Virus record (IMG/VR): IMGVR_UViG_3300034110_001243
Coordinates: 1-33,712 of that record
Source of the DNA: a virus
DNA length: 33,712 nt
Reading direction: 5' to 3' (one strand)
Part shown: positions 23,369-29,465 of the stretch, in pieces
Numbering within the stretch: position 1 is the first letter of the stretch
Layout: each line of letters starts with the position of its first letter
Notes under the pieces: model-generated
Told to the model about the DNA's origin: nothing
What the model saw: the letters and a program-made list of their open reading frames with translations, nothing else
Databases searched by the model: none
Translations under genes and position numbers: made by a program

Positions 23369-23959
23369 TTAGTTCATGGCGCGATCCATATCGTCCTTGC
23401 CCAGTTTAGAAACGTCTTCCAGCGTTTTACGCAGACGCTCGGTTAAAAGCTGCTCCAGCGCCCACGGATCAGTGATCGCGGCCAGATCAGACGAGATTTG
23501 TTTAGGCACACCCAGCAAGGTATCGCGTAAAAGACGACCGTAGCGGTGGGCGGCATCGTGTACGGCCTGCCGATCTACCGTCTGCTGGCAGACACGCTCG
23601 TATTCCACCTTGGCCAATTTAGCCAGATAGCCTTCACGGCTGGTGCGGGCTTCCTGAAAATCGGTAAACATCAGCTCGCCAGACAAAGGCGCTGCAGCGG
23701 CTTTAACCGGCAGCACCGGCCTATCGGCGTGGACTTCGTCATACACATCGCGCTGAATCCGCGCCTGCTCATGCCGCTGTCGCACGCCCTCTTTTGCGGG
23801 GTCGATGGTTTTACCGATCAGCGCCAGGGTAGCGGCGCAATCCACTTTTTTACCATCAGGGGTAAGAACTAAACGGCCCGTTTTTGACAGCTTGGTCACA
23901 TAGCTGGGCACCCAGCCTTGCGAATCTGCAAAGGCCTTCTTGCTCAGATATGGGTCCAT
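23369..23959 (-). CDS. Terminase small subunit (Nu1-like / DUF1441 type)
   Basis: The 196-residue product (lambda Nu1 181) begins MDPYLSKKAFADSQGWVPSY, a winged-helix start as in Nu1 (KKAFADS...V..L...GRLVL), then VDCAATLALIGKTIDPAKEG and a long charged helical middle with TSREGYLAKLAKVEYERVCQ. It recognises the packaging site and recruits the large subunit. It directly precedes the large subunit with a nine-base gap. Its start codon abuts a cluster of GTGAAA repeats that may be its own binding sites. The DNA-binding domain ends near residue 55. Confidence 0.85.
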   Translation of the reverse strand: MDPYLSKKAFADSQGWVPSYVTKLSKTGRLVLTPDGKKVDCAATLALIGKTIDPAKEGVRQRHEQARIQRDVYDEVHADRPVLPVKAAAAPLSGELMFTDFQEARTSREGYLAKLAKVEYERVCQQTVDRQAVHDAAHRYGRLLRDTLLGVPKQISSDLAAITDPWALEQLLTERLRKTLEDVSKLGKDDMDRAMN

Positions 23960-23960
23960 G

Positions 23961-24027
23961 CTTTCACCGATTATTTTAGGATTTCACTCGATTTCACCTG
24001 AGGTGAAATTTCACTAACTTCACCCGA
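23961..24027 (-). repeat. Iteron cluster upstream of terminase (candidate cosB)
   Basis: The sequence (+ strand) carries TTTCAC or TTCAC motifs starting near 23962, 23982, 23992, 24009 and 24018 and one inverted copy GGTGAAA at 24002. Two copies are exactly 10 bases apart. A perfect ATTTCACC-TGA-GGTGAAAT palindrome lies at 23991-24009. In lambda the small terminase binds R repeats between cosN and the Nu1 start; this cluster is in the equivalent place. It could also be an operator for terminase transcription. Confidence 0.55.
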
Positions 24028-24039
24028 CAGCCACTAAAA

Positions 24040-24140
24040 AGAAGCTGCGAGTCCTAGGCCCCGTAGTGCCTTGGAAAGTGCTAGGGTCCCCGGCTGAAAA
24101 AATGGGAAGGCAGATGGGCAGGCCGAGAGTCCTCTCATGG
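24040..24140. other. Candidate cos cleavage region
   Basis: This noncoding stretch has no good reading frame and alternates GC-rich blocks with A runs: GAGTCCTAGGCCCCG near 24050, CTAGGGTCCCCGG near 24083 and GGCCGAGAGTCC near 24121. It lies between the iteron cluster and the first late gene, where cos would be expected for a GpA-type terminase. The exact cut site cannot be read from the sequence. Confidence 0.35.
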
Positions 24141-24194: not shown

Positions 24195-24452
24195 TTATCG
24201 CTTGAAGATAGCGGATTGGATAATCACTTTTTTAATATTCAAAACAACGCTGGGAGTTTCACTCAAAAAGGAACCCTTGATCCCTTCCTGCAAAACATAC
24301 GCCTCACCCACTGGCTGGATAAAGTGTTGATGAACCTTGTCTAGATCCTCCAATAGCTTTTCAGGTTGAAATATACCGCTATCTGATACAGCTATCTTAC
24401 ATACCGTATCTACAGCTCGTTCATAAGCAAACTGTTTGTTTAATGCAATCAT
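24195..24452 (-). CDS. Unknown 85-residue protein, first late gene
   Basis: The likely start is the ATG at 24450-24452, seven bases after AGGAG; other ATGs lie at 24458 and upstream. The product (MIALNKQFAYERAVDTVCKI, ending IIQSAIFKR) is helical at the start and has alternating short strands after it, with no membrane segment, cysteine cluster or known motif. It stands between the structured leader at 24474-24658 and the candidate cos region. On lambda maps this interval holds lysis genes, which here have moved to the other end of the late block. I do not recognise it. Confidence 0.55.
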   Translation of the reverse strand: MIALNKQFAYERAVDTVCKIAVSDSGIFQPEKLLEDLDKVHQHFIQPVGEAYVLQEGIKGSFLSETPSVVLNIKKVIIQSAIFKR

Positions 24453-24473
24453 TACCATTCTCCTAAAAAATAA

Positions 24474-24552
24474 AGCGTTCAATCAGCAGCATGCGAAAAG
24501 GACCATTGAGCTATCAAATATTGATGTCCTGGCACGCTGCTGATTGAATGCT
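24474..24552 (-). ncRNA. Long imperfect stem-loop I upstream of the first late gene
   Basis: The left arm AGCGTTCAATCAGCAGCATGC pairs over 21 bases with the right arm, with a single G-U wobble and one A-C mismatch. The loop holds smaller stems, AGGAC/GTCCT and ATCAA/TTGAT. Read on the minus strand it is followed by TTTATTTTTT, then the ribosome binding site of the 85-residue gene. The size and nested stems go beyond an ordinary terminator. There is no protein-coding frame through it. Confidence 0.55.
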
Positions 24553-24567
24553 AAAAATGAATATAAA

Positions 24568-24658
24568 AACCCATTGGGCTGACGGCCAGCACTAAAACGC
24601 ATTCAGGTTGAATGCGTACGATTGGGGATCTGGGGGCTGGCCATCAGGCCGATGGGTT
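24568..24658 (-). ncRNA. Long imperfect stem-loop II with an internal perfect hairpin
   Basis: Arms at 24568-24590 and 24636-24658 pair at 20 of 23 positions (AACCCAT and ATGGGTT ends; GGCCAGC and GCTGGCC inner ends). Inside is a perfect nine-base hairpin ACGCATTCA / TGAATGCGT with a three-base loop (24597-24617). On the minus strand the outer stem is followed by TTTTTATATT. Together with stem-loop I it forms a two-domain RNA at the head of the late block. Confidence 0.55.
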
Positions 24659-24670
24659 CAAACGACGAGC

Positions 24671-24700
24671 AACAAAAAAGCCCCGATTCCTCAGGGCTTT
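24671..24700 (-). terminator. Intrinsic terminator after the Q-position gene
   Basis: An AAAGCCC / GGGCTTT stem with a ten-base loop is followed on the minus strand by TTTTTTG. It is weaker in the + direction (GTATTTT follows). It would end transcripts of the early operon before the late block. Confidence 0.75.
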
Positions 24701-24759: not shown

Positions 24760-25251
24760 TCAAGCAGGAATCAATGTAAGTTCATCACGCCACTCCAATA
24801 GCTCCATGCATTGATCCTCAATAGCAGCATATGCCCTCGTCGCCAGCAACTCCAATTGCATGACATACTTTTGCTCATACTCATTAGCGCTGGTACGGCC
24901 CACACCATGGAGAGCTGCGACCTGACGGCAAGTTGGCACTCCACAACCCGTGGCCCACTTACGAATAAGCGCCTGGTTTGTGGTTAAACCAAACCGCCCG
25001 CCAATGACCCCTGCCAAGTAAATAATCTCCGTATCACGCTGCAGATGTAACGCCCATAAAGCCGCCCTTTCTTCTACACACAACCTGCCCACCTTCGCCA
25101 ACACCATCGCGGCCTGATAGCGCTGGTCCTCCATGCTCATGGCACCAAAACCTGCCCCCGTTTGCTCGCCATAAGTCGCTATTTTAATTCCTGCCGAACA
25201 CTCAATTTGAAACGCCCAAGCCAGTAAAGATTTAATATTTTTGAATTGCAT
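24760..25251 (-). CDS. Candidate late regulator in the Q position
   Basis: The ATG at 25249-25251 after GGGGA gives 163 residues. The product begins MQFKNIKSLLAWAFQIECSA and contains RYQAAMVLAKVGRLCVEERA and a possible helix-turn-helix CRQVAALHGVGRTSANEYEQ near residues 115-134, then helices to the end. Its place, after replication genes and before the late block, is that of lambda Q-type antiterminators. A minus-strand terminator and two long stem-loops follow it. No clear family match is recognised, so the role as an antiterminator is inference from position and from the terminators within the late genes. Confidence 0.5.
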   Translation of the reverse strand: MQFKNIKSLLAWAFQIECSAGIKIATYGEQTGAGFGAMSMEDQRYQAAMVLAKVGRLCVEERAALWALHLQRDTEIIYLAGVIGGRFGLTTNQALIRKWATGCGVPTCRQVAALHGVGRTSANEYEQKYVMQLELLATRAYAAIEDQCMELLEWRDELTLIPA

Positions 25252-29330: not shown

Positions 29331-29423
29331 ATTGCCAGAAGCACGAGCCTGCAACATATCAAGTACCTCCTGTCATTCTCTCAAGCATTAAAATAAACAG
29401 TAAATAACCGAAAAACACAAAAT

Positions 29424-29465
29424 ATAACCAGTGTTATTGACTAAATTAATAACCTAGGTTATATT
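29424..29465 (+). promoter_or_regulatory. Leftward-type early promoter with two operators
   Basis: TTGACT (29437-29442), a 17-base spacer and TATATT (29460-29465) form a strong sigma70 promoter facing the + strand early genes. Operator palindromes ATAACCAGTGTTAT (29424-29437) and ATAACCTAGGTTAT (29449-29462) overlap both boxes. The second is a perfect palindrome. A half site ATAACCG lies at 29404. This is the counterpart of lambda PL/OL. Confidence 0.87.

Follow-up and report, generated by a model that had tools for sequence, protein, structure and literature searches.

Oversized hairpins in tandem with a tR'-like terminator: a probable Q/AlpA-type late leader in a temperate phage

What is the role of two very long hairpins at the head of a phage late operon? 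The question is raised by IMG/VR record IMGVR_UViG_3300034110_001243, positions 1 to 33,712, which is the whole stretch of DNA analysed here and is referred to as the window. The record is that of a temperate phage, with recognisable genes for terminase, portal, head protease, major head protein, tail sheath, tape measure and integrase. The leader of the late operon is read on the minus strand. An initial annotation had placed about 230 noncoding bases with long stems and a terminator between the gene in the Q position and the late genes. The stems and the terminator were confirmed, but the noncoding gap is longer: it runs for 307 bases from the stop of the Q-position gene (24760) to the ATG at 24452. 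The features of the region are as follows.

24760..25250, minus strand: Q-position gene (ATG at 25250), predicted from a model to encode an AlpA/Q-fold antiterminator with a helical N-terminal part and a C-terminal helix-turn-helix
24735..24763, minus strand: late promoter (pR'-like), TTGACT-17-TATCAT, sigma-70-like, overlapping the Q-position gene stop codon
Outer promoter spacer, -29 to -20, minus strand: candidate antiterminator-binding element, in a spacer that is swapped together with the helix-turn-helix in the relative L003
24717..24722, minus strand: -10-like TACAAT at about +7 to +12 in the initially transcribed region, candidate sigma-dependent pause element
24677..24700, minus strand: tR'-like intrinsic terminator, AAAGCCCTGAGGAATCGGGGCTTT followed by TTTGTT
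24567..24659, minus strand: H1, a branched 93-nt hairpin with a 22-bp outer stem and a T tract after it, candidate second terminator
24597..24617, minus strand: nine-base-pair hairpin inside H1, with a short T run after it
24474..24552, minus strand: H2, a 79-nt hairpin with 21-base arms, followed by TTATTTTTT and abutting the ribosome-binding site of the next ORF, candidate third terminator
24195..24452, minus strand: orphan 85-aa ORF with an AGGAG ribosome-binding site, in a variable cargo site
23960..24110, minus strand: cos-like region (GGGGACCCTAGCACTTTCC..., GTGAAAT iterons), directly before the small terminase gene

In the order of transcription, the gap holds a promoter-like site, the -10-like TACAAT, a conventional terminator (tR', about +29 to +60 from the late promoter), H1, H2 and then a ribosome-binding site. 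As judged from its motifs, the succession of promoter, -10-like motif and terminator is the layout of a Q/AlpA-type late switch, and polymerase presumably pauses at the -10-like motif. The ribosome-binding site of the 85-aa ORF lies within 15 bases past H2. This ORF (24452-24195) had been taken for the first late gene; it is instead an orphan for which a search for relatives found none, and a weak KorB-like match has an E-value of 0.018. The first conserved late gene is that of the small terminase at 23959. The cos-like region in front of it is 93-97% identical in five close relatives, and its position and iterons suggest a cos function. Two more elements were seen elsewhere in the window. A terminator-like hairpin (GAGACCCCGCAACTGCGGGGTCTT plus a T tract, 21497-21474, minus strand, -19.1 kcal/mol) lies within the 3' end of the large terminase gene and would require antitermination in the late operon. 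An AT-rich inverted repeat of 45-53 nt (29469-29417 / 29421-29465), with T tracts on both strands, lies near the repressor side and is perhaps a bidirectional terminator or an operator.

The long stems are far more stable than their shuffled counterparts. The folding energy of H1 is -46.6 kcal/mol (z -7.4), that of H2, taken as 24473-24553, is -38.4 kcal/mol (z -7.1), and that of the inner nine-base hairpin of H1 is -10.2 kcal/mol (z -6.2); in each case none of 200 shuffles was as stable. The entire gap stretch has a z of -9.5 against shuffles. The arms of H2 (24474-24494/24532-24552) were independently recovered as a 21-base inverted repeat with 90% complementarity. No other inverted repeat in the window has 19-base arms with two mismatches or fewer, and none of this class arose in 20 dinucleotide shuffles of the whole window. 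The terminator, H1 and H2 all abut T tracts on the minus strand, with no counterpart after the stems on the plus strand. Folding, repeat search and T-tract positions thus bear out the initial annotation, which had described long stems with T-rich tracts on the minus strand. H1 and H2 each place a stable stem directly before a T tract on the transcribed strand, as in an intrinsic terminator, and we infer that both terminate transcription. Their T tracts are interrupted. A scan of the window showed that a hairpin followed by a T tract is itself common in shuffled sequence, and energy alone fails to set H1 and H2 apart from shuffled sequence in this general scan. The unusual features are the long arms and the three T-tract hairpins in succession within a noncoding gap. 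A point against the terminator reading is the size of H1 and H2, which greatly exceeds that of typical terminators and brings no obvious gain for termination.

The gene upstream of the leader provides the context for these signals. An AlphaFold model of the Q-position protein, made from an alignment of eight sequences, has a pLDDT of 82. Foldseek against the PDB matched AlpA (7xyb, E 6.1e-4; 7xya, E 2.6e-3), and VIA-align gave Z scores of 12.3 and 11.1 for AlpA, 7.9 for lambda Q (7ubn) and 6.0 for Q21 (6p18), with all others at or below 5.3; identity to AlpA in the structural alignment is only 12-15%. A profile search with hmmsearch, which uses sequence only, also matched AlpA (E=0.0023). The model thus has the AlpA/Q fold with a C-terminal helix-turn-helix, and the protein probably acts as an antiterminator. 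Searches of Pfam and NCBIfam gave no match, PHROGs no confident match, and the named phage collection no relative, and relatives were found in 7 of 300 genomes of the host order. Two other phages, L005 and L010, carry related proteins of unknown family (L005:1910-2380 and L010:3416-3862; PHROG 19609 for L010) where the antiterminator would stand, and these come with a promoter, CTCAACAATCT motif and terminator of their own. These proteins are possibly a further antiterminator family; their structure model is poor (pLDDT 39).

The promoter layout recurs among relatives. A TTGACW-17-TANNNT promoter at the end of the antiterminator gene, with a terminator soon after, is present in L002, L003, L042 and L043 and in weaker form in L044, and an equivalent layout stands beside non-homologous proteins in L005 and L055. 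The TACAAT motif is kept in L002 and L003 and was not seen in L042. In the L003 protein (L003:4001-4510), the N-terminal part is 91% identical to that of the window and the helix-turn-helix part only 40%, the latter being closer to L042 (57%). The promoter spacer follows the same pattern. From -29 to -20, L003 is identical to the window at 3 of 10 positions and to L042 at 6 of 10, and from -19 to -13 all seven positions are identical in the three phages. Sequence comparison thus shows that the helix-turn-helix half and the outer promoter spacer were exchanged jointly in L003. This joint exchange is the best sequence evidence that the promoter spacer may be the binding site of the Q-position protein. 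This natural exchange could serve to read the binding code of the antiterminator.

Comparison of six close phages (the window, L002, L003, L005, L010 and L038) separates the constant from the variable parts of the leader. The promoter is present in all six, with a weak -10 in L010, and so is the intrinsic terminator downstream of it. H1 is intact in four (window, L002, L003, L005; 93-97% identity) and absent from L038. In L010 only a broken 3' half of H1 is left, with the 5' arm lost and a fold z of -0.4, and the covariance-model match in this phage was accordingly rejected as a remnant. H2 is confined to the window and L003. Since H1 and H2 are missing or broken in relatives that keep the promoter and the terminator, they are accessory, and the promoter and terminator are constant. 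In L005, the antiterminator, promoter and terminator have been replaced by unrelated ones, and H1 still follows. More distant relatives also have tandem terminators after the late promoter, namely L055 and, as read from sequence, L053 and L054.

These data bear on whether H1 and H2 form a cis-acting antitermination RNA, as the initial annotation had suggested by analogy with HK022 put. Nascent H1 and H2 would then bind RNA polymerase, so that downstream terminators are ignored. A pair of neighbouring stem-loops where an operon begins, with pairing kept on the minus strand, would suit such an element. The hairpins, however, lie after a terminator that the polymerase must already have passed, an AlpA/Q-fold protein antiterminator is encoded beside the promoter, and relatives with the promoter and tR' dispense with them. 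Both also end in T tracts. Their position, their dispensability and the adjacent protein antiterminator make a put-like RNA very improbable.

The stretch from tR' to the cos-like region contains a variable cargo site, with H1 and H2 beyond the first terminator and before the cargo. The cargo in L002 is an FRG-domain protein (L002:4899-6215) assigned to PDC-S15, a candidate defence class of PADLOC. L005 has a PLD-like protein (L005:2701-3666), L038 a repeat protein (read from sequence) and L010 two small ORFs, and the site is empty in L003. The cargo genes of L002 and L005 also have a terminator after them. The site is an exchange hot spot where cargo, and even the antiterminator module, have been swapped around H1. 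Such traffic, together with the broken 3' half of H1 retained by L010, is what would be expected if the hairpins were passengers, that is, cargo remnants or recombination linkers at a module boundary with no selected function for the phage. Against this stand the pairing kept despite substitutions, with one change in H2 mending an A-C mismatch, and the failure to find H1 as a repeat elsewhere in the 200-399 genomes sampled from the host order. Passenger hairpins are, on balance, improbable.

Database searches of the leader gave little. A MITE- or REPIN-like repeat spread through genomes was considered and rejected; outside the phage lineage there were only short terminator-like matches or nothing. 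Phage and plasmid collections had no match to the leader region, and a terminase-based scan of genome contigs gave one locus. Rfam had no match at gathering score. Its weak E-value matches (eukaryotic microRNA and snoRNA families and a few bacterial leaders and sRNAs) were all far below gathering and were taken as chance. No antitermination RNA family was among these Rfam matches.

Substitutions in the stems hint at which strand may be under selection. The relatives differ from the window at seven paired positions of H1 and H2, by six single transitions and one transversion. In the minus-strand RNA, each of the six transitions turns the pair into G-U and so keeps it; the plus-strand RNA would get an A-C mismatch. 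By our own calculation, the chance of this outcome is about 1 in 64 if both kinds are equally likely; three of the six cluster in the H2 of one relative. Another change, in L003, converts an A-C mismatch of H2 to A-U. The transversion, in L005, breaks one pair of H1 beside a mismatch that turns into a pair. The initial annotation had proposed compensatory changes as a check. Double changes are absent from the four H1 and two H2 homologues, which are all close and, as a sample, too few and too similar to give the covariation test power. The substitutions are nevertheless non-random, in that every transition keeps pairing. The changes tilt the balance towards selection on the minus-strand RNA and go no further than that, because transitions keep pairing and a mismatch is repaired while no pair has changed on both sides.

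Selection on the RNA could also reflect processing. RNase III cuts stems of about 20 bp. H1 and H2, with near-continuous stems of about 20 bp, fit its substrate size, and H2 ends right at the ribosome-binding site of the next ORF. If they served to process or stabilise the late mRNA made after antitermination, the duplexes would be cut, or would shield the 5' end of that mRNA, and so set cargo and late expression after read-through. Kept pairing on the minus strand is in line with this, but processing has no need of a T tract directly after each stem, and most relatives lack H2. This reading is tentative and rather unlikely as the sole explanation; processing could coexist with termination at the same hairpins. 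The conservation of H1 (93-97%, loop bases included) is about equal to or slightly higher than that of the neighbouring genes (mostly 91-95%), and conservation of the loop bases, which is more than a terminator would require, counts against the terminator reading. It is conceivable, though doubtful, that H1, H2 or both work as leader RNAs that do more than terminate transcription. They might, for example, switch processing, or act in cis together with the AlpA-like antiterminator to set expression of the swappable cargo (defence) genes apart from the late operon.

The best explanation, to which we give a probability of roughly 0.7, is that a Q/AlpA-type late operon has its leader here, in which H1 and H2 are accessory intrinsic terminators in tandem with tR'. 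Most likely, it is an ordinary switch for late-gene control with unusually large stop signals and not a new antitermination RNA. Transcription would start at the late promoter, which covers the antiterminator gene's stop codon. In the lysogen, a short late-promoter RNA would end at tR', and polymerase leaking past it would meet H1 and H2 before reaching the cargo gene, cos and the terminase, head and tail operon. The two hairpins would thereby keep cargo and late operon silent in the lysogen. Upon induction, the AlpA/Q-like protein would load at the promoter, and the polymerase would pass all the hairpins. By analogy with AlpA, for which a nozzle-type mechanism has been described (PMC9371919), the protein may block hairpin formation in the exit channel, in which case the large size of the terminators should not hinder it. 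The purpose of the extra terminators is presumably to silence or insulate the cargo site and the late genes. The tR'-like terminator array, the other proposal of the initial annotation, is thus supported by the late promoter, the AlpA/Q-fold gene and tR' directly upstream, and by T tracts on the transcribed strand. Two consequences follow. A putative AlpA/Q-type antiterminator that is invisible to the sequence family libraries searched can be assigned to a prophage lineage, and the cargo site, with stacked terminators on one side and the late operon on the other, points to a way in which such genes could be separated from lytic genes.

Three known systems resemble this leader in part. The put RNA packs two stem-loops into ~70 nt and works at early promoters without any phage protein (PMC9378689). 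The window shares with it two adjacent stem-loops in a phage transcript, but its stems are longer (93 nt and 79 nt), carry T tracts, belong to a late promoter, follow a terminator and come with a protein antiterminator. In the Q systems of lambda, 21 and 82, the antiterminator gene is followed by the late promoter, the pause motif and tR', an order shared by the window with its candidate pause motif. The window protein, in contrast, has no sequence match to known Q families in Pfam, NCBIfam or PHROGs, its promoter overlaps the end of the antiterminator gene, and its operon begins with cos and terminase.

The closest parallel is AlpA of Pseudomonas aeruginosa. AlpA is a processive antiterminator with a Q21-type fold that binds between -35 and -10, where its element GGGACG begins at -25; it needs a -10-like pause motif and acts on downstream intrinsic terminators (PMC7969949, PMC9371919). 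In its second target operon, two intrinsic terminators are predicted upstream of PA0807 (PMC7969949). As at the alpB and PA0807 promoters, the window combines a C-terminal helix-turn-helix fold and a candidate element between -35 and -10 with a -10-like motif after the start site and one or two intrinsic terminators before the first gene. Unlike alpA, the window gene sits in a prophage before cos and terminase. Its terminator starts at about +29, as opposed to +54 for AlpA, and is followed by two oversized hairpins.
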